NCBI GenBank assembly: GCA_902761575.1
Contig: CACWKU010000009.1
Location: forward strand, 1-32,745
DNA from: an uncultured bacterium
GTDB taxonomy: Bacteria; Verrucomicrobiota; Kiritimatiellia; RFP12; UBA3636
Length of the DNA: 32,745 nt
Direction of reading: 5' to 3'
Shown here: one piece after another, positions 4,959 through 22,533 of the stretch
How the letters are laid out: every line of letters begins with the position of its first letter
How positions within the stretch are numbered: position 1 is the first letter of the stretch
Notes under the pieces: generated by a model
The model's database searches: none
The model's input: the letters and a program-made list of their open reading frames with translations, nothing else
What the model was told of the DNA's origin: nothing
Position numbers and translations under genes: made by a program

Positions 4959-4974
4959 GCGCCGGGGGGAACTA
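4952..4974 (-). repeat. gene-end repeat, copy 1
   Basis: A 23-base segment ending in the minus-strand stop codon nearly matches 6965-6986: about 20 of 22 aligned bases are identical, with one indel. Both copies begin gccacgggcg and end in the stop (cta) of a minus-strand gene. Confidence 0.55.
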
Positions 4975-6888
4975 TTTGATCAGGATCAACGTGCCGGGCG
5001 GGTCGGCGAGGTAGCGCAGAATCAGGACGCCGCAGCCGCCCTTGCCGCCGATGCCGTCGGTCTGTCCGCCTCCTCCGCCGCCAGAGCCCGTGCCGTCGCG
5101 CCCGGCATGGCCCCATGGGCGGCGGTATTTTGGGCTCTGCAGAGCGGTCTCGCCGTCGCCGCCGATGCCGGAGCCGCCGATGCCGTGGTTGCCGCGCACG
5201 TTCGAGCTGCCCGACCACCCTGCGCCGCCGCCGGCGGCGTAGAAGCGCGACTCGCCCGTGATGTCGAACGCGAGTCCGTCGCCGCCGTTGCCGAGGCAGT
5301 CCGAGGTCGAGCCGGCCTTGCCGTCCGTGCCGGGAGAGCCCGCGCCGCCGCCGCCGCCCGGGTTGTAGCCGCTCGGGGCCGCGTTCCCGCCGGCGTGTCC
5401 GATCACGACGCCGTCGTCCGGCTCCGCGGCGCCGCCGGCCTTCTGCACGGCGCCGCCGCCTCCGCTTCCGCCGGGATGGCCCGCGTAGCGCGTCGAACCG
5501 CCCCCGTAGCAGCCACCGGCGCCGCCGCCGGGGGCCACGAGCGAGACGCGCCCGTTCCGCGAGACGAGCGACGAGGCACCGCCATCCCCGCCGTCGGCGA
5601 TGCCGCCGGCGCCGATGGCGACGTCGTAGATGCCGCCGGAGAGATGGATGCCGTTGGTGTGGACGAGCCCGCCCGCGCCACCGCCGCCGCCGGTCGCCGT
5701 GCCGCCCGAGCCGCCGCCGCCCACGAGCAGCAGTTCGGCGTCGAAGCCGCGTTTCACCCGCAGCTCGCCGCTCCCGCGGAACTCGTGGACGACCCAGTTG
5801 CGCTTGAGCTCCGGGTCGCGCCACGTGGAGACCGTGCCGCCGACGGCCCAGGCGCTTTCACGGTCCGCCGGCTCCTCGCTGGCGGCCGGCGGCGCGACGA
5901 GGAGGATCACGACGCCGTCGGCGCCGTTGGCGCTTTCGAGCGTCGTGCCGCCGGCATTCCAGCCGCCGCCGCCGCCGCCGCCGCCGCGGTTCGGGGCGGC
6001 GTCCGTCGCGTTGACGACCGAGCCCTCGAACAGCCCCGCGCCGCGTCCGCCGCCGCCGAGGCCGCCTGCACCGCCGTGCTTGAAGTTGGAGCGCCGCACG
6101 CCGCCGCCGCCGCCGTCGCCATAGGAGACCGCCGCGCCCGTGATGTCGGAGACGACGCCCGGGCCGCCGTCGCCGGCATGCTCGTAGTTGCCGTCCTCGT
6201 CCTGGTAGGCGTCGTTGTTTTTCGACGTGTGAAGCACCTGCGAATCGCCGCCGGGGCCACCCGCGCCCGCGCCGCCGCCGCCGCCGCCGCATCCGGTTCC
6301 GCTGGAGCCGGAGTTCGTCGCCTTGCCACCGGGAAAGCATCCTTCCGCACCGGCCTCGTAGCCGATCAGAGTCGCGGCCTGCTGATCGCACGCGCCGCCG
6401 CCGCCATTGCCCCAGGTCCGAGGCGATTCGACGTCCCAGCGACCGTCGTTGCTGTACCCCCAGCCTCTCGCTCCGCCGCCGCCAAGCGCGACGACCTCGA
6501 AGGCCGAGCATGAGACGGATGACGGGAACCCATTGTGGCCGCGGGCCTGCTGCGACCCCTGGTTGCTCCGGTAGCCGCACGGGCCGACGACAACCTGGTA
6601 TGCATCGTCCGTCTTGAGAAATGTGGGCGTTTCCGGTGTCCAGTCGACAACCTGCCCGCCGGCTCCGCCGCCAAGGCCGCCGCCACCACCGCCGCCCACG
6701 ACAAGCAGACGTAGGAGTCGCACGTCGGAAGGAACCGTGAGCGTGCCGTGCGACGTCATCGTCACGACGTGCGCGCCGGAGATGGTCGGGTGGTCCGTCT
6801 CGGCGAACGTGCCGGTGTAGGAGACGAGGTTCTCCGCGAGCGCGAGCGCGGGAGCGAGAAGCGGGAGGATCCGAAGGAGTCGTTTCAT
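4972..6888 (-). CDS. secreted protein with two glycine-rich domains
   Basis: This 638-residue protein starts at ATG 6888 with signal peptide MKRLLRILPLLAPALALA, so it is exported. It carries two related glycine-rich domains (about residues 65-325 and 385-638). Each begins with a beta-strand-plus-Gly run (LRLLVVGGGGGGG; AELLLVGGGGSGG), followed by Gly/Ala/Asn/Asp-rich stretches and a closing strand (DGVVILLVA; CGVLILRYLA). This is the pattern of the bacterial glycine-rich domain family common in PVC proteins and adhesin-like surface proteins. Function is unknown; a structural or surface role is a guess. Six or more Cys (e.g. ACDQQ, EGCFPGG, GTGCGG) suggest disulfides. The DNA is dominated by GCC/CCG-type triplets, a likely source of length variation. 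The minus-strand frame stays open much further upstream (to ~8763), but that part is out of frame with the aminotransferase gene and is not coding. Confidence 0.8.
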   Translation of the reverse strand: MKRLLRILPLLAPALALAENLVSYTGTFAETDHPTISGAHVVTMTSHGTLTVPSDVRLLRLLVVGGGGGGGLGGGAGGQVVDWTPETPTFLKTDDAYQVVVGPCGYRSNQGSQQARGHNGFPSSVSCSAFEVVALGGGGARGWGYSNDGRWDVESPRTWGNGGGGACDQQAATLIGYEAGAEGCFPGGKATNSGSSGTGCGGGGGGAGAGGPGGDSQVLHTSKNNDAYQDEDGNYEHAGDGGPGVVSDITGAAVSYGDGGGGGVRRSNFKHGGAGGLGGGGRGAGLFEGSVVNATDAAPNRGGGGGGGGWNAGGTTLESANGADGVVILLVAPPAASEEPADRESAWAVGGTVSTWRDPELKRNWVVHEFRGSGELRVKRGFDAELLLVGGGGSGGTATGGGGGAGGLVHTNGIHLSGGIYDVAIGAGGIADGGDGGASSLVSRNGRVSLVAPGGGAGGCYGGGSTRYAGHPGGSGGGGAVQKAGGAAEPDDGVVIGHAGGNAAPSGYNPGGGGGAGSPGTDGKAGSTSDCLGNGGDGLAFDITGESRFYAAGGGAGWSGSSNVRGNHGIGGSGIGGDGETALQSPKYRRPWGHAGRDGTGSGGGGGGQTDGIGGKGGCGVLILRYLADPPGTLILIK

Positions 6889-9456: not shown

Positions 9457-9678
9457 ATGCAAATTCTTCCGCCGCCACGGACGCCTCCCCCCGCCGAAGC
9501 ATTCGCCGCGCCGGCGGAAGTTCCGGCCTTTCCGGACATTGATTCAAAAACCGACACCGAACGGCGTCTGTACGAATCACAGGACTTCTACGGGGCCCAG
9601 TTCTCTCCCGACGAGGCTCGAGCCTTTCTGGCGAACCAGACCGGGATGAATGACTTCTCTGTTCCGCGGGGTCTTTGA
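9457..9678 (+). CDS. small hypothetical protein leading the polysaccharide operon
   Basis: This 73-residue ORF begins exactly at the leaderless start dictated by the TAGAAT promoter. The first ~28 residues are Pro/Ala-rich (MQILPPPRTPPPAEAF). The rest is charged and helix-prone (DTERRLYESQDFYGAQ, SPDEARAFLANQTG). There is no signal peptide or membrane segment and no recognised family. Its 3' end overlaps the 5' end of wzm (if wzm starts at 9650) by 29 bases, so it could act as a translated leader for wzm. Base composition changes within it from GC-rich to moderate, so it may straddle the junction of the acquired cluster. A remnant of a longer gene is the main alternative. Confidence 0.6.
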   Translation: MQILPPPRTPPPAEAFAAPAEVPAFPDIDSKTDTERRLYESQDFYGAQFSPDEARAFLANQTGMNDFSVPRGL

Positions 9679-10513
9679 GACGATGAACGGTATTTCCTCA
9701 CTCGTCCTGAGTTTCCTTTCGGTCCCGACAATCGCCTGGCGGAACCGGAGTCTTCTGTTAATGCTTTCCCGTCGCAATGTGGAAAGTCGATACAAAGGAT
9801 CGGTGCTCGGACTTGTGTGGAGCTTCGTGCAGCCGCTTCTAATGATGACAGTCTACACCATCGTATTCGGAGTGTTCTTTGGAGCAACGTGGCCCGGCGA
9901 GATCGGAAGAAATCCCTGGGCTTTTCCCGTGCTTGCTCTTTGCGGCATGTCAACCTTCAGCATCTTCTCAGAAAGCGTTTCCGCCTGTTGCGGGGAGATT
10001 CTCGGAAACCCGAACTATGTCAAGAAGGTGCTCTTTCCGCTGGAGCTGCTGCCCTTTTCGCGGGTGCTTGCAACCGTGGCCTTGAATCTGACCTGGTTCG
10101 TCCTTCTGTTCTTCGGCGCCGTCTTTCTTCTGGGCAGAATTAGTTTCACCATGCTGCTCCTGCCGGTAATGCTCGTCCCGTTGATACTGTTTACGCTCGG
10201 CATCTCGTTCTTTGTCTCATCTCTCAGCGTCTATCTTCGCGACACACAGCATCTGGTATCCGTGGTAATACAGGTTCTTTTCTTCCTGACCCCGATTTTC
10301 TACTCGCTGGAAGGAATTGAACCACGCGCGGCCACAATTCTGAGCATGAGCCCTCTTGCCTACGTCGTCGAGACGATTCGTGCGGTTTTCATCTATGGAC
10401 AGATGCCGAACTGGCATCAGTTTGGCATGGTGACGACGGTCTGCTTCGTCGTCATGCAGCTTGGCTTTGTTTGGTTTGAAAAGACGAAGAAGGGATTTGC
10501 GGATGTCATCTGA
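9650..10513 (+). CDS. wzm: polysaccharide ABC exporter permease (Wzm type)
   Basis: This 287-residue ABC-2-type permease has about six membrane spans. The family signature region is clear: MLSRRNVESRYKGSVLGLVW followed by SFVQPLLMMTVYTIVFGVFF, the amphipathic entry and first spans of Wzm/KpsM-like proteins. Later spans sit around FVLLFFGAVFLLG and LLLPVMLVPLILFTLGISFF, and the typical late segment LFFLTPIFYSLEGI precedes the last span. With Wzt (11864-13099) it would move a completed, lipid-linked polysaccharide across the inner membrane. The start could be ATG 9650 or ATG 9683; neither has a strong Shine-Dalgarno. Unusually, the permease and ATPase genes are separated by the CMP-sugar synthetase gene. 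Confidence 0.92.
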   Translation: MTSLFRGVFETMNGISSLVLSFLSVPTIAWRNRSLLLMLSRRNVESRYKGSVLGLVWSFVQPLLMMTVYTIVFGVFFGATWPGEIGRNPWAFPVLALCGMSTFSIFSESVSACCGEILGNPNYVKKVLFPLELLPFSRVLATVALNLTWFVLLFFGAVFLLGRISFTMLLLPVMLVPLILFTLGISFFVSSLSVYLRDTQHLVSVVIQVLFFLTPIFYSLEGIEPRAATILSMSPLAYVVETIRAVFIYGQMPNWHQFGMVTTVCFVVMQLGFVWFEKTKKGFADVI

Positions 10514-10542: not shown

Positions 10543-11859
10543 ATGAAGGTTTACGCGTTTGTCCCGGCGAAGGGAACGTCAGAACGGGTCGAAAACAAGA
10601 ACATGCGCTTTCTGGACGGCGAGCGCCTGTACGTGCGCGCCCTGAAGACGCTGCTTCGATGCAAGGAGATCGACAAGGTCTTCCTCGACACGGAATCAGA
10701 GGAAATGTATTCCCTTTGCGATTATCTTCCGATCCAGTTCATGAAACGCGACCCGGCGCTCGCCAACAATAAGACGGACGGCCACCGCATGTTCATGAAC
10801 GAGGTCGAGACAAACCCGGATGCCGACATCTATGTCCAGATGCTCTGCACGTCGCCCTTTATCGCTCCGGAAACGATCGATTCGGTCATTCGCGGCCTGA
10901 AGGCCGACGAGCGCCACGACTCCGCCATCCTGATGCGCTCCGAAAAATGCTATGGTTGGAAGGACGGGAAACCGGAATACGACATCCACCACATCCCCAA
11001 CAGCAAAGACCTTCCCCCGACTATCACCGAGACCATGGGCCTGTATGTTCAGCGCAGGGAGAGCGCTCTGCGAACGCATCGCCGTTATGGCGATCGTCCG
11101 CTATTCGTCTATGCCGCGCCCGCCGAACAGGTGGATGTCAACACCCCGGAGGACCTCGCCTTCGCCGAAATTGTCGCCAAGGGCATACGTAGCGCGAAGA
11201 ACCGCCGCCTAGAAATGGTCAAGCACCTGCTGACTTCGTCCGCGATGTCGGACGTGCTTGACGACCTCAAGGTCGAGATCGGGGCGGATTGCGGTGCTGT
11301 CCTGTCCGGCTGGACGACGAACGCCGGAAGCCGCAAAATCATCGGGAGAGCCTCGACACTGCGGCTTCGCCGCCTTGGTCCCGGCGAAGACTTCAACGGA
11401 ATCTACAAGGCCCTTGACTCCTACAGGGGAATGACCGACAACAGCATCATCTGCGTCGAGAACGAAGTTCCCGAATGCGCGTACTTCGGAGGCCTGAATG
11501 CGCGCATGGCGATCCGTGCCGGGGCCGTCGCCGCGATCATCGACGGCAAGACGCGAGACGCCGTCGAGACGGCGCAGTTGAATTTTCCTGTCTATTCGCG
11601 CGGGTACAACGCCCAGGACGTCCGCCGGCGGGCGACGCTTGACTATGTTGACAAGCCGGTTCGCATCGGCGGCGCAAAGGTTTCGCCAGGCGACCTGATT
11701 TTCATCGACGACTGCGCCGCCGTCGTCATCTACCAGAAGCACGAAGACGTCGTCCTGAACCGCGTGTGCGCCACATTCGAGAACGAGACGAATATATCCT
11801 CCGCGATCTTTTCGGGCGAAAGCGCGGACGCCCTTGTCCGGAAATACGGGGCGTTTTGA
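10543..11859 (+). CDS. CMP-ulosonic/acylneuraminate-type cytidylyltransferase fused to RraA-like (aldolase-family) domain
   Basis: This 438-residue two-domain protein starts at ATG 10543 with GGGAG at 10531-10535. The N-terminal domain (1 to ~215) is a CMP-sugar synthetase of the NeuA/PseF type: FVPAKGTSERVENKNMRFLD (6-25) is the CTP-binding loop, MLCTSPFIAPETID (100-113) is the usual follow-up, and EQVDVNTPEDLAFAE (195-209) is the C-terminal metal-site signature. The C-terminal domain (~226-405) is of the RraA/HMG-aldolase family: GGLNARMAIRAGAVAAIIDG (316-335), then KTRD with the Arg338-Asp339 pair, and GDLIFIDDCAAVVIY (383-397). RraA-family aldolases release pyruvate from branched keto acids, and RraA itself binds RNase E. 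The fused domain could make, trim or sense a pyruvate-derived keto-sugar acid before activation; that is inference. No other sugar-precursor gene is in the operon. Confidence 0.87.
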   Translation: MKVYAFVPAKGTSERVENKNMRFLDGERLYVRALKTLLRCKEIDKVFLDTESEEMYSLCDYLPIQFMKRDPALANNKTDGHRMFMNEVETNPDADIYVQMLCTSPFIAPETIDSVIRGLKADERHDSAILMRSEKCYGWKDGKPEYDIHHIPNSKDLPPTITETMGLYVQRRESALRTHRRYGDRPLFVYAAPAEQVDVNTPEDLAFAEIVAKGIRSAKNRRLEMVKHLLTSSAMSDVLDDLKVEIGADCGAVLSGWTTNAGSRKIIGRASTLRLRRLGPGEDFNGIYKALDSYRGMTDNSIICVENEVPECAYFGGLNARMAIRAGAVAAIIDGKTRDAVETAQLNFPVYSRGYNAQDVRRRATLDYVDKPVRIGGAKVSPGDLIFIDDCAAVVIYQKHEDVVLNRVCATFENETNISSAIFSGESADALVRKYGAF

Positions 11860-11863
11860 CAGT

Positions 11864-13099
11864 ATGAAAGACCAAGGCGAAATCGTTATTTCGGTTCGCG
11901 GCGTTTCGAAGTGCTTTGAAATGTACGCGAAGCCGATCCATCGCCTCTTCCAGCTGCTTTTTGCGAGACGAAAAAAGTTCTTCAGGGAGTTCTGGGCGCT
12001 CCAGGACATAGACTTCAACGTCCGCCGCGGGGAATGCGTCGGCATCATCGGTCGCAACGGGGCCGGCAAATCGACGCTCCTCCAGATTGTCACCGGAACG
12101 CTTCAACCGACGTTAGGGACGGTTGAAATCAAGGGGCGGGTTGCGGCGCTGCTGGAACTCGGCAGCGGGTTCAATCCCGAATTCTCCGGACGCGACAACA
12201 TCTACATGAACGCATCCATCCTCGGTCTGGCCAAGGATAAGATCGACGAAAAATACGATGAAATCGTCAGCTTTGCCGACATCGGGGATTTCATCGACCA
12301 GCCGGTTAAGACCTATTCGTCCGGAATGATGGTGCGTCTGGCATTTGCCGTCAATGCATTTGTCGATCCCGACGTTCTCATTGTCGACGAGGCACTTGCC
12401 GTGGGGGACATCGGATTCCAAATGCGGTGCATGCAGCGCCTCCGAGAGCTGATCGCCAGGGGAACCACCCTGCTTTTCGTCACGCACGACCTGGGGCTGG
12501 TCTCGTCGTTCTGCAGCAAGGTGCTTTTCCTTCAGGGCGGACGGCAAATGGCCTTCTCGACCGACGTGGTTGCCACCATAAACGCCTTCAGGGAAAGCGT
12601 CCGGGTTGCGCCGGTCGCCGCCGCTGACGACTCCCGTCGAAACGCCGAGGTGTCGGAATACCGATTCGGAACGCATGACGCCACCATCGAGAGCTGTGAG
12701 GTCTTCGAATCGTTTGAAAAACCTCTGGACCTGAGCGCGATCGTCGCCGGGCGGAAGTATCTTGTTCGGGTGACGATGAACGCCAAAAGAGACATCTCCA
12801 ACGTCGTGCTGGGCATGTCATTCCGGAACAGGGAGGGGGTTGACGTGTGGGGCGAGAACACGGTCGGCATCTTCGGCATGGGATTCCGACTGAAGGCTGG
12901 CGTCAACACACTGGTCTTCGAGACCTGTTTCAACGCCAATGTCGGAGAGTATGGAATCACATGCGGAATTGCCGACATTTCCGTTAACCCCAGAATTGAA
13001 CTGGACCAACGGTGGCCTCTTCGCAAGATCACCGTCGTTTCCGAACACCCGGGCCAGGGCGTATGTTACGGGCCGTGGAACTTCGTGGAGCAAACATGA
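11864..13099 (+). CDS. wzt: polysaccharide ABC exporter ATPase with C-terminal glycan-binding domain (Wzt type)
   Basis: This 411-residue protein starts at ATG 11864, four bases after the previous stop. The ABC domain has Walker A GRNGAGKST (63-71), the signature YSSGM (151-155), Walker B VLIVDEALAVGD (171-182) and switch His208. Residues ~285-410 form a beta-rich C-terminal domain like the Wzt carbohydrate-binding domain (VRVTMNAKRDISNVVLGMSF; GVNTLVFETCFNANVGEYGI). In the O9a-type export paradigm this domain recognises the modified non-reducing end of the finished chain, so its presence implies a chain-terminating cap. The acyltransferases or the CMP-sugar transferase in this operon are candidates to add it. 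The stop overlaps the next start (ATGATG, 13096-13101). Confidence 0.93.
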   Translation: MKDQGEIVISVRGVSKCFEMYAKPIHRLFQLLFARRKKFFREFWALQDIDFNVRRGECVGIIGRNGAGKSTLLQIVTGTLQPTLGTVEIKGRVAALLELGSGFNPEFSGRDNIYMNASILGLAKDKIDEKYDEIVSFADIGDFIDQPVKTYSSGMMVRLAFAVNAFVDPDVLIVDEALAVGDIGFQMRCMQRLRELIARGTTLLFVTHDLGLVSSFCSKVLFLQGGRQMAFSTDVVATINAFRESVRVAPVAAADDSRRNAEVSEYRFGTHDATIESCEVFESFEKPLDLSAIVAGRKYLVRVTMNAKRDISNVVLGMSFRNREGVDVWGENTVGIFGMGFRLKAGVNTLVFETCFNANVGEYGITCGIADISVNPRIELDQRWPLRKITVVSEHPGQGVCYGPWNFVEQT

Positions 13100-14076
13100 T
13101 GGGCGAGGAAGCGTTCAACGCGCCGAACCGCGATGCGATGGTGGACATACTGAAGGGGCTTGCAATTTCGCTCGTCCTTTTCGGACATTGCCGTTCCGAG
13201 TTGAACTACCTGTCGAGGCTTTGCGTTGGTTGCCATATGCCGGCGTTTTTCTTTGCGTCCGGACTCGTTCTTTCGACCAGAAGAAGCATCGCGGGGTTTA
13301 CCCTCTCCAAGTTGCGGACGCTTGCATGGCCCTTCCTGACCGCATCGCTCCTGTACTGGGTCGCGCTGCCCGGTTCCCGCGAATCGATTGTCCGGGACAC
13401 GCTGACGTTCACCGGCAGCGGGCCGCTTTGGTTTTTACCGACGCTCGGCATAGCCCTGCTCGTGGCCCGAATGACCATTGGCTCAGACGGGCGCGTTTGG
13501 TTGAGAGTTGGCCTTCTTCTGCTTTGGCTTGCGACATGTCTTCTGCCGTGGCGCCTTGCACCCGTCATCCACGAATCTCCAGGTCTCGTGATCCTTGTCC
13601 GCTCGGCAATCGCCTTCGGGTTCGTCTATCTCGGTTGGATGGGTCGGGATATCATTCGTGGATGGAGTCTTCGCCGTTTTCTTCCGGCGGCGGCGGCGTA
13701 TTTCCTTCTGGCCGAATTACTGAGGACGCGCTTCGTCTTTGACCTTCGTTGCGCGATCGTTCCCGACGCGGCCGTCTATCTTTCTCTTGCGCTTTGCGGA
13801 ATCGCCGCCCTTGTGCTGGCATCCCGTATCGTTTCACGCCACGAAACCGGGCTCAAACGAGGACTTGTCTGGCTGGGACGAAACAGCCTGTGCCTGATGA
13901 TCACTCACTGGGTTGCCCTTTTCTACATAAAACCGATTGCACAAGAGAGCGTTTCCGGGCACCTTCTCCAACAGCTGGTCTGCTTTGGATTCGTCTTCCC
14001 CTGGTCTCTTGGGGCGACCATACTGGTGGACAGGTACATTCCGTGGTTTGTGAGATTCGGGGGGCGTGCCGCATGA
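13096..14076 (+). CDS. membrane acyltransferase (acyltransferase-3 family)
   Basis: This 326-residue multi-spanning membrane protein opens with the family hallmark RDAMVDILKGLAISLVLFGH (catalytic His) and then GCHMPAFFFASGLVLS. About ten hydrophobic segments follow, including RTLAWPFLTASLLYWVALPG and the late LGRNSLCLMITHWVALFYI. Such enzymes O-acylate (usually acetylate) sugars of surface glycans on the inner membrane or its periplasmic face. It lies between wzt and a glycosyltransferase gene with four-base overlaps on both sides, so it is part of the same operon. The start is ATG 13096; ATG 13099 is possible. Specificity is unknown. Confidence 0.88.
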   Translation: MMGEEAFNAPNRDAMVDILKGLAISLVLFGHCRSELNYLSRLCVGCHMPAFFFASGLVLSTRRSIAGFTLSKLRTLAWPFLTASLLYWVALPGSRESIVRDTLTFTGSGPLWFLPTLGIALLVARMTIGSDGRVWLRVGLLLLWLATCLLPWRLAPVIHESPGLVILVRSAIAFGFVYLGWMGRDIIRGWSLRRFLPAAAAYFLLAELLRTRFVFDLRCAIVPDAAVYLSLALCGIAALVLASRIVSRHETGLKRGLVWLGRNSLCLMITHWVALFYIKPIAQESVSGHLLQQLVCFGFVFPWSLGATILVDRYIPWFVRFGGRAA

Positions 14077-15665
14077 GAATCCTAAAGGTCCTGTATTGGG
14101 TTTCGCCCCTCATAGAACTTGACTGGCCGTTCCAGAAGGAATCCTGGGTTCGCGACCTGGTTCCGAGGATCAACGCCGCACTGGAGGCCAACTTCGAGAT
14201 CGGCGATTCCCTTGTCTGCGTCGGCGAGGAAATCCGGCATCTCATGGAGACCAAGTCGCTGGCGGTTCCCGGACGAATCCTTGCGTTTTCCCAGCGCGAA
14301 CTTCTGGACGACTATACGCTGGATGGGCTTGCCGAAAGGCGACGGTTTTTCGCAACCGGGGAGGCCTCGCGCTATTACGGCAATCTGGCCCGTCGCTTTC
14401 TGGAAAAAACCGGCGGCGATTATCGGCCCGATGTGATCTTCTCCTTCAACGAGTCCCCCTTCCTTCGCAAGCTGTACCCCGAAGCCATCCACCTTTCCGT
14501 TGAGCATTCGGTCTTTTCACGGAGACCCTATCCTCGCACGTACGCGTTCGACCCGTTCAGCGACGGCAACAGCCGCCGGTTCCTGTCCTCGACGATGTGC
14601 GCGGATATCAACGCCATCGACGCTTCTCCGGACGACCTCGCCGCCATTGGCAGGATGCGTGAAACGGTAATGGAAGCTCTAACCTCGAATTCGGCCATAA
14701 CTGAGTATTTCATGGAACTTCGCAGGTCTTTCGACCACGTCATTCTCATGCCCCTGGGATACGAGCGTAACTATGACACCCTTGTGACGCGGAGTTATTC
14801 AGGGCAGTTCGAGTTCGTTGAGCATGTCCTTGACAGCGTGGATGCAAAGACGTGCATCCTGCTCACCCAGCATCCGACCATCCACGCGATCCGCCCGGAG
14901 CGAGTTGAGGAACTGAAAGCCATTCATCCCAACCTGAGGCTGGAATCTTGGTTCGGCAGCGTCGAGAACTTTTCCCAGGCGGCCATGGCCTATTGCGACG
15001 GTTGCGTTGTCGCCGAATCCTCCCTGGCCTATCAAGCCGCGTTTCTTGGCAAGCATCTGATTTCACCAGATGGTTTCTGCGAGGGGATTGCGGACTCGAC
15101 CGACATTTCAAGAATTGCCGATACGCTTGAACGGCCAACTCGGAAACGAGACAACTTCTTTGCATGGGTGCTGAACCATTACGCAGTGGATACGGATTTC
15201 ATTCCCGAGTACTTGAAGGCCGCAATCTGCTCCTTCCCGCGCGCGGAATCCTGGACCGGGCCGGACTTTGGCAGTTGGCCTTCCGCCCATCCGGGCGTCT
15301 CCCTGTCCGCACTTGTTGACAAGTGGAACGCGGAATGTGTCAAGCCCTTTCTTCGTTTTTTCCCTACAGGCAGACTTGTCCCCCGCGATTTCGATCTGTC
15401 TTCATCTGCCCAGAGGACGATTGCAGAGCTTCGGAATCGGCTCGAATCGCAACAGGACGAACTGCGACGGCTTTTTGATGACAGGGACCGGATCATCGCG
15501 GACAGAGCCGAAATCCGGAGTCAGTTGGATGGAATCGTGTCATCTCGCGTCTATCAATTCGTTCTGGGCCTTCAATCCGTCATGAGCGCCTTGATCCCGC
15601 GGCCCTCTCGGTTGCGACATGCGCTTGCAAAGGTACGCGGTTCCTTGAGGAGAAAACAACAATGA
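14073..15665 (+). CDS. glycosyltransferase with CMP-sugar-type HP/SS motifs and C-terminal coiled coil
   Basis: This 530-residue cytoplasmic protein starts with the ATG that overlaps the previous stop (ATGA). The N-terminal half is alpha/beta. The stretch CILLTQHPTIHAI (His267-Pro268) followed by CVVAESSLAYQAAFLGKHLI (Ser316-Ser317) fits the 'HP' and 'SS' motifs of GT-B enzymes that use CMP-sialic acid or CMP-Kdo, including the KpsC/KpsS/WbbB-like Kdo transferases and bacterial sialyltransferases. Residues ~445-488 are a charged coiled coil (AELRNRLESQQDELRRLFDD), followed by a basic, amphipathic tail probably used for membrane contact. A CMP-sugar synthetase gene in the same operon agrees with a CMP-sugar donor. 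A chain-capping transferase with a coiled-coil spacer is a reasonable model but unproven. The closest family assignment is by motif memory only. Confidence 0.65.
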   Translation: MRILKVLYWVSPLIELDWPFQKESWVRDLVPRINAALEANFEIGDSLVCVGEEIRHLMETKSLAVPGRILAFSQRELLDDYTLDGLAERRRFFATGEASRYYGNLARRFLEKTGGDYRPDVIFSFNESPFLRKLYPEAIHLSVEHSVFSRRPYPRTYAFDPFSDGNSRRFLSSTMCADINAIDASPDDLAAIGRMRETVMEALTSNSAITEYFMELRRSFDHVILMPLGYERNYDTLVTRSYSGQFEFVEHVLDSVDAKTCILLTQHPTIHAIRPERVEELKAIHPNLRLESWFGSVENFSQAAMAYCDGCVVAESSLAYQAAFLGKHLISPDGFCEGIADSTDISRIADTLERPTRKRDNFFAWVLNHYAVDTDFIPEYLKAAICSFPRAESWTGPDFGSWPSAHPGVSLSALVDKWNAECVKPFLRFFPTGRLVPRDFDLSSSAQRTIAELRNRLESQQDELRRLFDDRDRIIADRAEIRSQLDGIVSSRVYQFVLGLQSVMSALIPRPSRLRHALAKVRGSLRRKQQ

Positions 15666-17467
15666 AACGCATAACGACGATGATCATCACCTATAATCAC
15701 GAGGCCTTTATTGCCAAGGCCATCGAAAGCGCCGTGCGCCAGAAAGGGAATTTCGACCACGAAATATTGATTTCCGACAACGGCTCCACGGATGGCACTC
15801 GTCAAATCGTCCGGGAATACGCCGCTCGATATCCCCTTCTGATCAGGGACGTCTCGAACGATGTCAACATCGGCATTTCGGGAAATATGCGGAAATGCTT
15901 TTCCCTGGCCACCGGCGACTATATCGCAATGCTGGAGGGCGACGATTATTGGACGGACGTCTCCAAGCTCGACAAGCAACGGAAGTTTCTCGAAAAACAC
16001 GAGGAATGTTCCATGGTATTCTCGCGCATTCGCGTGAACCGAGACGGAGAGTTTTCGTTGCTTCCGCGACATGACAGATTGCCGACTTTGATCGGCGTTC
16101 GCGATTTGCTGGATTCGGAGGAAATGAACCCGATCTGCAATTTTTCCTGTAGCATGTTCCACGCCCGGTATATCCGTAGTCTGCCCGATGTCGCCTACGA
16201 GGGGCGGCTAAGCGAGATTACGGTTGCTTTCTACATGGTTCAAATCGGTCCGATCGGGTACATCGACGAATGCCTTTCCGATTACCGCATCCATGCCAAC
16301 GGAGTGTTTGCCGGTGCCACGGCTCTCGAGCAGACACGGCAGGCCTTGCAGACCTTCTTGACGGTCAAGAAGGTTGCTTTCATTTCCTGCTGGCCGCAAT
16401 TGACGAAGACCATTGAGGGTCTGAAACGATCCCTATGCGATGTGATTTCTCCGCGTATCAGCATCGTTACGATCGCTTTGAACAACCTTGAAGGCCTAAA
16501 GAAGACTGCAAAGAGCGTGCTTGAACAAAACAGTTCCAACTTCGAGTGGATTGTTATCGATGGCGGCAGCACAGATGGATCCAAGGAATTTCTTTCTTCG
16601 CTGGAACGCCAGCCGGATTATTGGGTTTCGGAACCGGACAATGGCCTCTATGATGCCATGAACAAAGGAATACAGGCCGCAAAGGGAGGATACGTACTAG
16701 CGATGAACGCAGGCGACACCTTTCGTTCATCCGACACGCTGAAGACCGTTCTGGACCACGGACTGAACGCCGATGTCGTCTATGGCGACTGGGTCCTGGA
16801 ATTTCCCGACCACGAAGAATTCCGCAAGGCACCCGACGTACTGCCTCCGTTCTTCTTTTTCCAAGAAGGGGGCAACATTTGCCAGCAAGCGATGTTCGTC
16901 CGAACGTCCATCCTAAAGAAGTCTCCGTTCGACACGCATTATCGTGTCGTTGCCGACTGGGCAAAATGGAGGGAATTGATGCTGTCGGGCTGCTCTTTCG
17001 CTTACGTACCGGTAACAGTCTGCAATTTTGAGGCCGTGGCGGGGGTTAGCAGCTATGGGGCCACTTTCCTCAACGTCAATGACACATTGCTGCTGAGAGG
17101 GTCATTCCCGCAAGGCATCATCGAGGAATCTCTTCGACTGCAGGCGATGGGAACCGGACATCTCGCGGCATCGCAGTGGCCTCAGACAGGATCCAATCCA
17201 TTTCTGCTCATGGTTTTGAAACCGCTCAAACGTATTTCCTTTGCATTTCGACAGAGAGGGGTGGTAGGTGCAATACGGTATGTAGCCAGTTTGTTCCTGC
17301 CCTTTGGATGTGTTCGTTGGTGGTTAAAAAACCGGTATGGATATTCGATTGGACTCGATCGTTTCAACGCAAGCGGAACGGTCGGGCGCATCACCCGCGC
17401 CCTCTTATTCGTCTGTCCGTATGGTCTGATTTGCATCTGGGATCTGTTTACCAACAAACGGAGATAG
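15662..17467 (+). CDS. bifunctional glycosyltransferase with two GT2 domains
   Basis: This 601-residue protein has two GT-A domains in tandem. Domain 1 (residues 1 to ~250) shows TTMIITYNHEAF, DNGSTDGT (39-46) and EGDDYW (92-97). Domain 2 (~263-500) shows RISIVTIALNNLEG, DGGSTDGS (300-307), EPDNGLYDAMNKGI (324-337) and MNAGDTF (348-354), a pattern like the WcaE-type GT2 enzymes. A hydrophobic/basic C-terminal tail (~515-601) may anchor it to the inner membrane. Two transferase domains in one chain would fit a polymerase that adds two alternating residues of a repeat unit, as in ABC-dependent pathways where chains are completed before export. The start overlaps the previous stop (ATGA at 15662-15665). 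Confidence 0.9.
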   Translation: MKRITTMIITYNHEAFIAKAIESAVRQKGNFDHEILISDNGSTDGTRQIVREYAARYPLLIRDVSNDVNIGISGNMRKCFSLATGDYIAMLEGDDYWTDVSKLDKQRKFLEKHEECSMVFSRIRVNRDGEFSLLPRHDRLPTLIGVRDLLDSEEMNPICNFSCSMFHARYIRSLPDVAYEGRLSEITVAFYMVQIGPIGYIDECLSDYRIHANGVFAGATALEQTRQALQTFLTVKKVAFISCWPQLTKTIEGLKRSLCDVISPRISIVTIALNNLEGLKKTAKSVLEQNSSNFEWIVIDGGSTDGSKEFLSSLERQPDYWVSEPDNGLYDAMNKGIQAAKGGYVLAMNAGDTFRSSDTLKTVLDHGLNADVVYGDWVLEFPDHEEFRKAPDVLPPFFFFQEGGNICQQAMFVRTSILKKSPFDTHYRVVADWAKWRELMLSGCSFAYVPVTVCNFEAVAGVSSYGATFLNVNDTLLLRGSFPQGIIEESLRLQAMGTGHLAASQWPQTGSNPFLLMVLKPLKRISFAFRQRGVVGAIRYVASLFLPFGCVRWWLKNRYGYSIGLDRFNASGTVGRITRALLFVCPYGLICIWDLFTNKRR

Positions 17468-17615: not shown

Positions 17616-18668
17616 CTGACCCTGGCACAGTTGCTTCTTTCCGTCGGCATCGTGCTGTACCATTCCTATGCCCTTTCGTCCGATTCCGCCATCCCGGGTC
17701 CATGGTACAGGGCTTTCTTCGGCTCTCGGGGGAAAAACCTAGGCACATGGTGCATAAATGGCTTTCTCGTTCTTTCCGGATTTATGCTGAATCGTTCTGC
17801 CGATTCCGGATCAAACGGCGGACTCCGGGCCGCATGCGCTTTCGCCATGAAGCGGTTAATACGAATCTATCCAGGCATCCTCTTTGTGACGCTGGTCGCT
17901 GTATTTGTTGTCGGTCCGGCGTTTACGACCCAGAATGTTCGCGACTATTTCGGCGATTCGGGAACTTGGGCATACCTTTTTACCGGCCTGAATGTTTTCG
18001 CCCGTCCGCCGGTGGCACTGCCGGGTGTTTTTGATGCAAATGCGTTTCGGCAGATTGTGAACGGGAACCTGTGGATGATCCCGTGGTTGATGTGGTGCTA
18101 CATTCTCTTTGCGGCGGCGATACTGCTCCGCCTCCACCGCCAGCGGATTGTCGTGGCCCTGATGTGGGTTCTGGCCCTGTATGGTTGTTCCATTGAACAG
18201 GTCATTGATCCGGCGGTGACGTTCTGCGGACTCTGGGCGCATGATGGGTTGAGGTTGATGGGAAGTTTCGTCACCGGCTGGGCTCTGTATCTGTTTCGCG
18301 ATCGAATCCGGTTCGACGGACGATTCGCACTGGCGATGCTTGTTATGACGCCATTCTGGCTCGATTCAGACGCTCACACCGCCACCAGCTGTCTGCTTTC
18401 CGGCTATGTTCTCTGCACGTTCTGCTTCCATGTCCGTTCGATTCCCCTCACAGAAAGGATTCCCAGAATCCATTGGGAGATATTCCTCCTGTCCTTCATG
18501 GTGCAGCAGGGCGTCACCGCAGTCAACGGAGGGGGCATGCCTCAGATGCCCAACTTCATTTACTCTCTGGCCATCACCATTCCGTTTGCGCTGATTCTAC
18601 ATTCACTTTTGGATCGGACGAGTCAGGCGATTCGATCTCAGCTGTTGCCTCTGCTAGAACGGCCCTAA
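17616..18668 (+). CDS. membrane acyltransferase (acyltransferase-3 family), N-terminus probably frameshifted
   Basis: The reading frame from ~17601 encodes a typical acyltransferase-3 protein: NNPNLTLAQLLLSVGIVLYH carries the catalytic-His segment, CINGFLVLSGFML follows, and about ten hydrophobic spans run to the stop at 18668 (roughly 350 residues). No ATG exists in this frame upstream of the first span; it is open back to a stop at 17469-17471 but reads there as Arg/Cys-rich noncoding-like sequence. The nominal start given here is CTG 17616; TTG 17631 is also possible. ATG 17563 in another frame (MTAARLPRIGG) would join smoothly if one base were added in the G run at 17590-17594. The gene is therefore either non-ATG started, frameshifted or mis-assembled. 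It is the last gene of the operon and would add an acyl group to the glycan. Confidence 0.7.
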   Translation: MTLAQLLLSVGIVLYHSYALSSDSAIPGPWYRAFFGSRGKNLGTWCINGFLVLSGFMLNRSADSGSNGGLRAACAFAMKRLIRIYPGILFVTLVAVFVVGPAFTTQNVRDYFGDSGTWAYLFTGLNVFARPPVALPGVFDANAFRQIVNGNLWMIPWLMWCYILFAAAILLRLHRQRIVVALMWVLALYGCSIEQVIDPAVTFCGLWAHDGLRLMGSFVTGWALYLFRDRIRFDGRFALAMLVMTPFWLDSDAHTATSCLLSGYVLCTFCFHVRSIPLTERIPRIHWEIFLLSFMVQQGVTAVNGGGMPQMPNFIYSLAITIPFALILHSLLDRTSQAIRSQLLPLLERP

Positions 18669-20193: not shown

Positions 20194-20592
20194 CTACGCC
20201 CCGGCCTTCTTCATGAGCTGGGTGGTGGAGACGCCCGGCGTGCGGGGCAGGTAGACGACCTCGACGCCGCAGGACTCCCTGAGCCAGTCGAAACGGCCCT
20301 CGTAGTCCGCGCCGATGATGAAGAGGTCGGCCTTGTGCTCGCGCACGTAGTCCGCCTTCTTCTCCTCGCACTCCTCCTTGAAGACCTCGTCGACGCACCG
20401 CAGCTCCGCGACGATCGCCGCGCGCTGCTCGTAGGGGAAGGCGAGGCCGTGGCTCTTGTTCTTGCTGGCGATGAACTCGTCGCTCGAGACGCCGACGACG
20501 AGTCGGTCGCAGAGCGCGCGGGCCCGCTGCAGGATGCGCAGGTGCCCGTAGTGGAACATGTCGAACGTGCCGAATGTGATTCCCGTTTTCAT
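20194..20592 (-). CDS. TagD-like cytidylyltransferase (glycerol-3-phosphate type), paralogue 1
   Basis: This 132-residue nucleotidyltransferase has GTFDMFHYGHLRIL (the HxGH motif at 14-17) and RTPGVSTT near the end, the ribonucleotide-binding signature of TagD/glycerol-3-phosphate cytidylyltransferases and related adenylyltransferases. Length matches TagD (~130). It is about 57% identical by eye to the paralogue at 22138-22533. It differs where TagD contacts substrate: GADYEGRFDW here against GDDWAGKFDW there, and KSHGLAFPYEQR against RNPWYSFEER. A different polyol- or sugar-phosphate substrate is plausible. The start overlaps the stop of the kinase gene (ATGA, 20589-20592), indicating tight coupling. 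Confidence 0.88.
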   Translation of the reverse strand: MKTGITFGTFDMFHYGHLRILQRARALCDRLVVGVSSDEFIASKNKSHGLAFPYEQRAAIVAELRCVDEVFKEECEEKKADYVREHKADLFIIGADYEGRFDWLRESCGVEVVYLPRTPGVSTTQLMKKAGA

Positions 20593-22061
20593 GCGCGATC
20601 CTTCATGGCGGCGAACCGGGCGAGCGCCTCGTCCCAGGCGGCCGCGGCGTCGCGGTTCGGCGGATAGACGACGGGCGGGTCCGAGATGCGCATGAGTTCG
20701 CGGGCCTCGGCGTGGTCCTTGAGGTCGCCGAGGGCGATCATCTGCACGAGGACGTTGCCCGCGCAGGCGCCCTCGGTCGGGCCACAGAGCACCGGCACGC
20801 CGAGCGCGTCGGCGGTCATCCGGCAGTGCAGCGCGTTGCGCGTGGCGCCGCCGATCATGTTCAGGCCGTCGCGCTTCTCGCCCGTGATGCGCTCGAGCTG
20901 GCCCCAGAGCTCCTTGTAGCGCAGGACCATGCTCTCAAGCGCGCATCGCGCGAAGGCGCCCTTGCTCTCCGGGACGGGCTGGCCGGTGCGCTTGCACCAC
21001 GCGGCGATCTTCTCGTCCATGTGCCCCGCGCGCTGGAAGTCCGGCGCGTCCGGGTCGATGAACGAGACGAACGGCTTCGCCTTCGAGGCCATCTCGGTCA
21101 TACGGTCGTAGGGAACCTCCTCGCCCTGCGCCTTCCAGGCCTTGTGCAGCTCCTGGTAGACCCACATGCCGGTGAGGTTCTTCATGAACCGGATGCCGCC
21201 GGTGATGCCGATCTCGTTGGTCCAGCTGCATTCGTAGGCCTCGTCCGAGAAGATCGGTTCGGGGATCTCCGCGCCGACGAGGCCCCAGGTGCCCGTCGAG
21301 AGGCAGCCCCACTTGCCCTCCTTCGGGACGGGGATCGCGGCGACCGCGGAGGCGGTGTCGTGCGTGCCGACGGCGACGACCTGAGTCGAGTAGCCCTCGA
21401 GGTTGCAGACGGGGCCGAGGATCGTTCCGGGGCGGACGAGCTCGCCGAAGAGGCGGCGCGGAAGGCCCGCCGCGTCGATCAGGTCCCACGCCCAGCCGCG
21501 CGCGCGAACGTCGAGGCACTGGCTCGTGGAGGCCATCGTGATCTCGTTGGAAAGGACGCCCGAGAGCCAGTAGTCCATGAGGTCCGGCACCATCAGGAAA
21601 CGGGCGGCGCGGTCGAGCTGCGAGGCGGGCGACCTGGACTCCGCCACGAGCTGGAAGAGCGTGTTGATCGGCATGAACTGCGTGCCGGTCGCGTCGTAGA
21701 TGCGGCGGCGACCGAGCTTCGCGCACATGTCTTCCATCACGCCGTCGAGGCGCGGGTCACGGTAGGAGTGCGGCAGTCCGGTCAGACGCCCGGCGGCGTC
21801 CACGAGCGCGAAGTCCACTCCCCAGGTGTCGACGCCGACGGAGACGGGGTCGCTGCCGAGAGACTTGGCCCGGCGAACGCCCTCGAGGATGTTGCGGTAG
21901 AGGGCGACCATGTCCCAGTGCAGGCCGCCGGGCAGCGGCGTCTGGGCGTTCTCGAAGCGGTTCGTCTCCTCGAAGCGGAGGCGGGATCCGTCGAAGCGGC
22001 CCGCGATCACGCGGCCGCTGCCGGCGCCCAAGTCGGACGCAACGTAGATTTTTTCGCTCAT
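20589..22061 (-). CDS. rhaB: rhamnulokinase-family FGGY carbohydrate kinase
   Basis: This 490-residue FGGY kinase resembles RhaB throughout: DLGAGSGRVIAGRFDG (10-25) is the first phosphate loop, GVDTWGVDFALVDAAGRLTG the substrate-binding core, then PHSYRDPRLDGVMEDM, VAVGTHDTASAV and LSTGTWGLVG (ATP site), and NMIGGATRNALHCRM near the end. Classical RhaB phosphorylates L-rhamnulose for catabolism. Here no rhaA or rhaD is present. Instead the gene is coupled to a cytidylyltransferase gene and an RgpF-type gene, so an anabolic role (making a phosphate to be CDP-activated) should be considered. The start is fixed by a TAGAAT box eight bases upstream; the mRNA should be leaderless. Confidence 0.9.
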   Translation of the reverse strand: MSEKIYVASDLGAGSGRVIAGRFDGSRLRFEETNRFENAQTPLPGGLHWDMVALYRNILEGVRRAKSLGSDPVSVGVDTWGVDFALVDAAGRLTGLPHSYRDPRLDGVMEDMCAKLGRRRIYDATGTQFMPINTLFQLVAESRSPASQLDRAARFLMVPDLMDYWLSGVLSNEITMASTSQCLDVRARGWAWDLIDAAGLPRRLFGELVRPGTILGPVCNLEGYSTQVVAVGTHDTASAVAAIPVPKEGKWGCLSTGTWGLVGAEIPEPIFSDEAYECSWTNEIGITGGIRFMKNLTGMWVYQELHKAWKAQGEEVPYDRMTEMASKAKPFVSFIDPDAPDFQRAGHMDEKIAAWCKRTGQPVPESKGAFARCALESMVLRYKELWGQLERITGEKRDGLNMIGGATRNALHCRMTADALGVPVLCGPTEGACAGNVLVQMIALGDLKDHAEARELMRISDPPVVYPPNRDAAAAWDEALARFAAMKDRA

Positions 22062-22069
22062 GGGTGGCG

Positions 22070-22099
22070 ATTCTAGCAGAAAATGGCGCGCTGATGCAA
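22070..22099 (-). promoter_or_regulatory. promoter of the kinase-cytidylyltransferase-RgpF operon
   Basis: The -35 box TTGCAT (22099..22094), 18 bp and the -10 box TAGAAT (22075..22070) are seen on the minus strand. The ATG at 22061 follows after 8 bases. Its -35 box lies two bases from that of the divergent promoter. Confidence 0.85.
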
Positions 22100-22101
22100 C
22101 C

Positions 22102-22130
22102 TTGCGGCGGCAGTCGCCGTCTGATAGAAT
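22102..22130 (+). promoter_or_regulatory. promoter of the second TagD-like gene
   Basis: The -35 box TTGCGG (22102-22107), 17 bp and the -10 box TAGAAT (22125-22130) are seen. The ATG at 22138 follows after 7 bases. It is head to head with the kinase promoter, so one protein bound here could control both. Confidence 0.85.
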
Positions 22131-22137
22131 CCGCGCC

Positions 22138-22533
22138 ATGAAGCGAGGCATCACCTTCGGCACGTTCGACGTCTTCCACTACGGGCATCTGCGCATCCTC
22201 GAGCGCACGCGAGAGCTGTGCGACTACCTGGTCGTCGGCGTCTCGAGCGACGAGCTCAACTTCTCCAAGAAAGGTCGCAACCCCTGGTACTCGTTCGAGG
22301 AGCGCGCACGCATCGTCGGGGCCCTGAAGTGCGTCGACGAGGTCTTCAAGGAGGAGTCGCTCGACCTCAAGGCCGACTACATCAGGAAGTACCGTGCCGA
22401 CGTCCTTGTGATGGGCGACGACTGGGCCGGTAAGTTCGACTGGGTGGTTCCGCTCACCGGGTGCGAGGCGATCTACCTTCCGCGCACGCCGGCGATCTCG
22501 ACGACCGCGATCATCGAGAAGATCCGGGGATAG
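22138..22533 (+). CDS. TagD-like cytidylyltransferase (glycerol-3-phosphate type), paralogue 2
   Basis: This 131-residue paralogue of the gene at 20194-20592 has GTFDVFHYGHLRIL (HxGH at 14-17), GDDWAGKFDW and RTPAISTT. These match classical TagD (CTP + sn-glycerol-3-phosphate to CDP-glycerol) better than the first copy does. It is transcribed divergently from the kinase operon by an adjacent leaderless promoter and is monocistronic. A hairpin overlaps its stop. No CDP-glycerol polymerase (TagF-like) is in the window, so the use of its product is open. Confidence 0.9.
   Translation: MKRGITFGTFDVFHYGHLRILERTRELCDYLVVGVSSDELNFSKKGRNPWYSFEERARIVGALKCVDEVFKEESLDLKADYIRKYRADVLVMGDDWAGKFDWVVPLTGCEAIYLPRTPAISTTAIIEKIRG

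Follow-up and report, generated by a model that had tools for sequence, protein, structure and literature searches.

A CMP-sugar-acid synthetase joined to an RraA/HMG-aldolase-like domain within a polysaccharide-export locus

Sequence comparison indicates that a CMP-sugar-acid synthetase joined to an RraA/HMG-aldolase-like domain is a real, conserved two-domain protein, and one that apparently has no earlier description. It is encoded between genes for the two components of a polysaccharide exporter in the window, by which we mean the whole 32,745-nucleotide stretch of DNA from an uncultured bacterium that was analyzed here. Since both halves belong to known families, the fusion represents a new architecture, not a new kind of enzyme. 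In the open-access literature, we found no paper naming both acylneuraminate cytidylyltransferase and RraA, and none combining cytidylyltransferase, Kdo and the RraA family. Taken as a whole, the protein is proposed to be an activator of a Kdo-type ulosonate, and to use that acid as the substrate of its aldolase domain as well, with the product capping an exported chain. We assign this complete reading a probability of about 0.45.

The fusion gene and its product

The fusion gene occupies positions 10543-11859 of the forward strand, with an ATG at 10543, a stop codon at 11857-11859, and a ribosome-binding site (GGAG) 7 nt 5' of the start, and it encodes 438 amino acids without interruption. 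Its two domains and the neighboring genes are as follows.

9650-10513, + strand: Wzm-type ABC transporter permease (PF01061, ABC2_membrane, 3e-17; 53% identical to the permease of locus L050)
10543-11196, + strand: N-terminal CMP-sugar-acid synthetase domain of the fusion, residues 1-218 (Pfam, PDB profile search, Foldseek, motifs)
11197-11859, + strand: C-terminal RraA/HMG-aldolase-like domain of the fusion, residues 219-438 (Pfam, PDB profile search, Foldseek, conservation)
11864-13099, + strand: Wzt ATPase with C-terminal carbohydrate-binding domain (PF00005, ABC_tran; PF14524, Wzt_C)
13012-14076, + strand: membrane acyltransferase, Acyl_transf_3 (PF01757, 1.3e-18; start uncertain, overlapping the end of wzt)
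14073-15665, + strand: GT-B-like protein with a predicted C-terminal helical/coiled-coil tail (homologues in genomes G100 and G171; low-confidence model)
15662-17467, + strand: two-domain family 2 glycosyltransferase (PF00535, two stretches)
17631-18668, + strand: second membrane acyltransferase (PF01757, 3e-11)

In Pfam searches, the window protein matched PF02348 (CTP_transf_3) over residues 6-127, with 66.9 bits against a gathering score of 22.6 (2.9e-18), and PF03737 (RraA-like) over residues 256-395, with 77.1 bits against a cut-off of 24.5 (2.3e-21). Sequence searches of the PDB paired the N-terminal half with PpNeuA and the C-terminal half with 3k4i and the HMG/CHA aldolase 3noj, and profile searches returned the same two identities, NeuA-type synthetases and RraA/HMG-aldolase proteins. 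An AlphaFold model, built from an alignment of nine rows and of modest confidence (mean pLDDT 73.5), was used for Foldseek searches that recovered both folds: CMP-Kdn synthetase 9t4z and CMP-Neu5Ac synthetases for the N-terminal half, and 3k4i, 3noj and other RraA-fold entries for the C-terminal half. The preliminary description of this DNA, made from the letters alone, had called the C-terminal half RraA-like and had placed the gene between wzm and wzt; Pfam bears out both statements, and the Wzm and Wzt neighbors support the tie to polysaccharide export that it drew from them.

Distribution and inheritance

Nine intact full-length fusions were found in several phyla, the other copies being 53-64% identical to the window protein (58-64% for full-length fusions from other phyla). 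Their hosts are Gastranaerophilales/Melainabacteria, an Elusimicrobiota MAG, a relative of the window organism from the same class, and one further bacterium, and the order of domains is the same in all fusion loci. A Methanomassiliicoccales archaeon carries a frameshifted copy, in which the frameshifts may reflect assembly errors or decay. Because nine intact copies exist in several phyla, together with the archaeal one, the fusion is no artefact; the full-length copies rule out a chance frame or annotation error, and the shared architecture in independent genomes rules out a misassembled junction.

The fusion is rare and sporadic, being detected in 2 of 289 genomes of the window's phylum, 1 of 295 genomes of the phylum of the Elusimicrobiota genome and 1 of 293 in the archaeal phylum, and in full-length form in 4 of 289 genomes of the class to which the Gastranaerophilales genome belongs. 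Trees built from the full protein and from its separate halves showed no conflict among supported branches, consistent with one fusion event followed by co-inheritance of the halves. In the window, the fusion lies in a stretch (∼9.6-18.9 kb) of 53-60% GC, set against a background of 66-77% GC, as expected of an acquired glycan island. A phage origin was set aside, since phage records contained no match to the fusion. A relative of the N-terminal domain only (33% identity) is present on a viral contig (L112, 5001-5621), beside GDP-mannose-dehydratase-like and RecA-like genes. Elsewhere in the window, a putative frame at 4972-6600 (- strand), very glycine-rich and repetitive, falls within a stretch of 77% GC.

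The synthetase domain

The preliminary description had assigned residues 1-215 to a NeuA-type synthetase with its metal motif. The enzyme identity is upheld by Pfam, PDB and Foldseek matches, and the domain contains the P-loop PAKGTSERVENKN, K19-N20 and Q99-x-LCTSPF (the TSP motif). The metal motif did not hold up in its canonical form: the DxD expected before TPED is absent, and all nine fusions carry DxN instead (D198-V-N200). Since the same variant recurs in the NeuB-linked synthetases H3, H21 and L033, DxN does not disqualify the domain as a synthetase, and the idea of a dead enzyme was set aside.

Profile searches matched the domain to the PpNeuA CMP-Kdn synthetase and the murine CMP-Neu5Ac synthetase, and it is closer to NeuA/CMP-Kdn synthetases than to KdsB. 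The window protein falls below the NCBIfam cut-offs for KdsB (40.8 vs 193 bits) and PseF (41.6 vs 205.7 bits), and in the tree the fusion N-terminal domains form one clade, apart from the KdsB proteins of their hosts, with NeuB-linked L033 as the nearest non-fused synthetase and sister. In our judgement, which is not a computed value, this domain is very probably a synthetase active on a 3-deoxy-2-ulosonic acid.

Other fusions were seen among the relatives of this domain. In the L033 protein (1495-2889, genome G772), a NeuA-like synthetase with a DIN motif is combined with a KdsB-like one, and the neighboring genes are NeuB-like and phosphoglycerate-mutase-like. At L097 (1501-2646, genome G1260), a CMP-sugar-acid synthetase has a KdsC-like HAD domain as its fusion partner and is encoded upstream of a NeuB-like gene.

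The active site of the RraA-like domain

The Arg338-Asp339 pair singled out in the preliminary description was numbered correctly and aligns with R123-D124 of HMG/CHA aldolase. E415 corresponds to E199 of that enzyme when the 3noj alignment is extended without gaps; the aldolase binds its metal through Asp-124 and Glu-199, and most members of the RraA family bear one of two motifs for metal binding and catalysis (PMC5065237). When loss of catalytic residues across homologues was checked, R338, D339 and E415 proved invariant in 9 of 9 aligned fusions. Position 317, equivalent to D102, is D in five of the nine, E in one, and G (the window), S or N in the remaining three. Glu342, in the arrangement R-D-x-x-E, is present in exactly those three fusions without an acid at 317, the other six having A, K, Q or N (Fisher p = 0.012, n = 9, with no correction for L004 and L036 being close relatives), and the archaeal copy has acids at both positions. 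The fusion thus has the catalytic Arg-Asp pair and further metal acids (E415 and an acid at 317 or 342). The second family motif, attributed to Mazurkewich (2014), reportedly reads G-x20-R-D-x2-E/D, and we take the mapping of the window's 317/342 arrangement onto it as a lead. Catalysis by this domain is plausible because the fourth acid is kept through the swap between 317 and 342; loss of the aldolase metal site through G317 was rejected once the compensating E342 was found.

The domain scores far below the NCBIfam equivalog cut-off for LigK-type HMG/CHA aldolase (TIGR02798, 56.1 vs 304.5 bits) and below the cut-off for the RraA regulator of RNase E (NF006875, 20.4 vs 136 bits). In a rival account, it would have ceased to be an enzyme and serve as an oligomerization or regulatory module that organizes or inhibits the synthetase. 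One of the RraA proteins is indeed a regulator, binding the RNA degradosome and modulating it (PMC5065237), the C-terminal domain diverges faster than the N-terminal one (44-56% vs 63-74% identity), and Gly stands in place of the D102-equivalent acid in the window copy. This account is nevertheless quite unlikely, given the invariant R338, D339 and E415 and the acid at 342 in precisely those copies that lack one at 317. N319 and R361-R363, in the active-site region, are also invariant among fusions, the latter being absent from the PDB relatives shown. We judge, again without computing a value, that an active, metal-dependent site of the RraA type is probable.

A different reaction of the family, dehydration or decarboxylation of the acid before or after CMP activation, has a precedent in FlDet, an RraA-family 2-keto-3-deoxy-D-glucarate dehydratase/decarboxylase for which a 2-keto-3-deoxy sugar acid is an established substrate (PMC8563752). 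Such a reaction is highly improbable here, as FlDet is only 20% identical to HMG/CHA aldolase, and a product that had lost CO2 would lack the carboxylate by which an ulosonic acid is defined.

Genomic clues to the substrate

In the archaeon, genes for KdsA (399 bits), KpsF/KdsD (254) and KdsC (177), all above cut-off, lie directly upstream of the fusion, forming a kdsA-kdsD-kdsC-fusion operon (L041 4653-8185; L006 3761-7296) in which the KdsC-type phosphatase gene overlaps the fusion start. No other strong CTP_transf_3/KdsB protein was found in that genome, and the archaeal fusion thus stands in the position of KdsB, the CMP-Kdo synthetase. KdsA was present in 12 of 12 genomes tested, including all ten fusion hosts, and a convincing NeuB (E < 1e-60) in three of the ten fusion genomes only (G246, G745 and G755). 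NeuB was not found in the other seven, which include the window's, an absence read from incomplete MAGs, and no NeuB lies beside the fusion in the loci examined. A NeuB-made nonulosonate is unlikely in the window genome, where the lone PF03102 match (3.5e-8) falls on a weak KdsA/DAHP-synthase-like locus.

A normal, separate KdsB is encoded in the window genome and in four other bacterial hosts tested. Replacement of housekeeping KdsB by the fusion was ruled out for the window genome, in which an ordinary KdsB lies beside KdsA (contig C63), and because the bacterial hosts tested already own this enzyme, a second Kdo activator needs a reason. The NeuB linkage of the sister synthetase L033, and the closer resemblance of the N-terminal domain to NeuA/CMP-Kdn synthetases, likewise count against Kdo. 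Weighing these clues by judgement, we lean slightly toward a substrate of the Kdo type, either Kdo itself or a derivative, over a nonulosonate, and it seems reasonably likely that the same acid is the substrate of both domains.

Aldolases beside related synthetases

Standalone relatives of the N-terminal domain adjoin other enzymes of pyruvate chemistry. On an Acuticoccus plasmid (L082, 6201-9362), a CMP-sugar-acid synthetase gene accompanies an HpcH/HpaI (HpaI/GarL-like) aldolase, a 2-hydroxyacid dehydrogenase and a HAD-type gene, and the same set occurs on a G1200 contig (L098, 4720-8459); it looks like an undescribed CMP-ulosonate pathway. In genome G287 (L101, 2803-6436), a NeuA-like synthetase, KdsB, a DmpG-like HMGL-type aldolase and a HAD phosphatase are encoded in one run. 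HpaI- and DmpG-type aldolases have folds unrelated to RraA and related pyruvate-enolate chemistry. Five further relatives lie beside NeuB (L033, L079, L107, L096 and L097). An enzyme forming or breaking C-C bonds with pyruvate or PEP thus appears to be a frequent partner of this synthetase family, in a survey that was small, partly hand-picked and had no background control. The proximity of these unrelated aldolases to related synthetases is independent support for the aldolase-synthetase link proposed in the preliminary description.

The lack of NeuB and the aldolase neighbors favor synthesis from pyruvate, in which the C-terminal domain would take over from NeuB or KdsA and build the acid out of pyruvate and an aldose that bears no phosphate, while the synthetase would pull the unfavorable aldol equilibrium forward. 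No NeuB was found in most fusion genomes, including the window's, related synthetases adjoin pyruvate aldolases of two other folds, and the aldolase residues are retained. However, KdsA, KdsD and KdsC already supply Kdo in the archaeal operon, NeuB is also present in three fusion genomes, and the standalone synthetases with aldolase neighbors do not form the sister clade of the fusion in the tree, leaving de novo synthesis rather unlikely. The archaeal kds operon favors a role in remodeling or controlling an acid that has already been made. Provided that Kdo is the substrate, it also disfavors the simple coupling of formation to activation suggested in the preliminary description, because at least in that archaeon the Kdo pathway appears to supply the acid.

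The export locus and a candidate transferase

The window's Wzt is 62% identical to that of L049, a locus with a standalone CMP-sugar-acid synthetase. In genomes G100 and G171, the order is Wzt, a standalone CMP-sugar-acid synthetase, and a homologue of the 14073-15665 protein (33-38% identity) with further glycosyltransferase domains, and the Wzm and Wzt proteins of these sets are 53-62% identical to the window's. The window has the same Wzm-Wzt-synthetase-glycosyltransferase set, except that its synthetase is part of the fusion. The 14073-15665 protein matched no Pfam family and, in sequence searches, no PDB relative; its model is of low confidence (pLDDT 57), and a fold search gave a general GT-B match that included polysialyltransferase. 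We infer that it is a candidate for the transferase that uses the CMP-sugar acid to add a cap, and a candidate new glycosyltransferase family. In five other loci, a DUF115/MptE-like gene abuts the fusion (PF01973 was sub-threshold in the three scanned) and may encode the CMP-sugar-acid transferase there.

Two small cytidylyltransferase-like genes in the window (20194-20592, - strand; 22060-22533, + strand) flank a rhamnulokinase-like gene (20589-22163, - strand), the first resembling glycerol-3-phosphate cytidylyltransferase below that family's cut-off.

Proposed mechanism and comparison with known systems

In the reading we prefer, the N-terminal domain would use CTP to attach CMP to a 3-deoxy-2-ulosonic acid, the likeliest being Kdo or an acid derived from it, and the C-terminal domain, as a metal-dependent (class II) enzyme of the pyruvate-aldolase type, would perform reversible C3-C4 aldol chemistry on the same acid. 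It could convert Kdo to its C4 epimer by retro-aldol cleavage and re-addition, or cleave unwanted free acid; such conversion or control seems somewhat likelier than synthesis from pyruvate and an aldose. The CMP-sugar would then be the donor for the GT-B-like protein, which would cap the chain, and the capped chain would be accepted by the carbohydrate-binding domain of Wzt for export. Unusual capping sugars of ABC-exported polysaccharides could have their origin in the fusion. Its gene would also be a candidate to encode aldolase-type chemistry on Kdo, an activity purified in 1966 by Ghalambor and Heath, as cited in PMC4412817.

The closest parallel for the export steps is Klebsiella O4/O12 (GT137, WbbB), which likewise has Wzm and a Wzt with a C-terminal binding domain. 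There, the binding domain recognizes a Kdo residue at the chain end, and the transferase that adds this residue depends on CMP-Kdo and is part of a protein with a coiled-coil ruler (PMC11231755); cap recognition for export is also treated as a general principle in PMC9445017. We liken this terminator, CMP-sugar-acid-dependent and with a coiled coil, to the 14073-15665 protein, which has no demonstrated homology to GT99/GT137. Unlike the window, Klebsiella uses ordinary CMP-Kdo as donor and has no fused synthetase (PMC11231755). FlDet belongs to the RraA family, as does the C-terminal domain, and acts on a 2-keto-3-deoxy sugar acid, but is catabolic, single-domain and catalyzes a different reaction (PMC8563752). 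HMG/CHA aldolase (LigK/PmdF type, 3noj) shares the fold, the R-D pair, the second metal acid (E415) and the YFGxL motif; the fusion is 22% identical to it, has the unusual invariant R361-R363 and is joined to a synthetase.

KdsB and KpsU are of the same superfamily as the synthetase domain, KpsU (1h6j) being a capsule-specific second CMP-Kdo synthetase, and the archaeal fusion has the same pathway position after KdsA, KdsD and KdsC. The fusion differs from KdsB in its separate clade, its scores below NCBIfam KdsB cut-offs and its second domain. With NeuA-type synthetases (9t4z, 1qwj, 6ifd) it shares the CTP_transf_3 fold, CTP loop, K19-N20, Q99 and TSP motif; it differs in its ∼20% identity, DxN for DxD, the RraA-like domain and the lack of an adjacent NeuB.

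To our knowledge, in all well-known CMP-ulosonate pathways a PEP-dependent synthase makes the acid and a separate enzyme activates it. A broader proposal, possible but speculative, is that the RraA-type domain remodels or makes the 3-deoxy-ulosonic acid through C3-C4 aldol chemistry, for example by epimerizing Kdo at C4 or by building the acid from pyruvate without PEP, and that the synthetase traps the result as CMP-sugar. If true, this would be a CMP-ulosonate route distinct from KdsA or NeuB followed by KdsB or NeuA, and one that has passed horizontally among bacterial phyla and reached archaea too. Viewed alongside the related synthetases that neighbor two other kinds of pyruvate aldolase, the conserved fusion suggests that ulosonic-acid metabolism in surface glycans has an unexplored branch.
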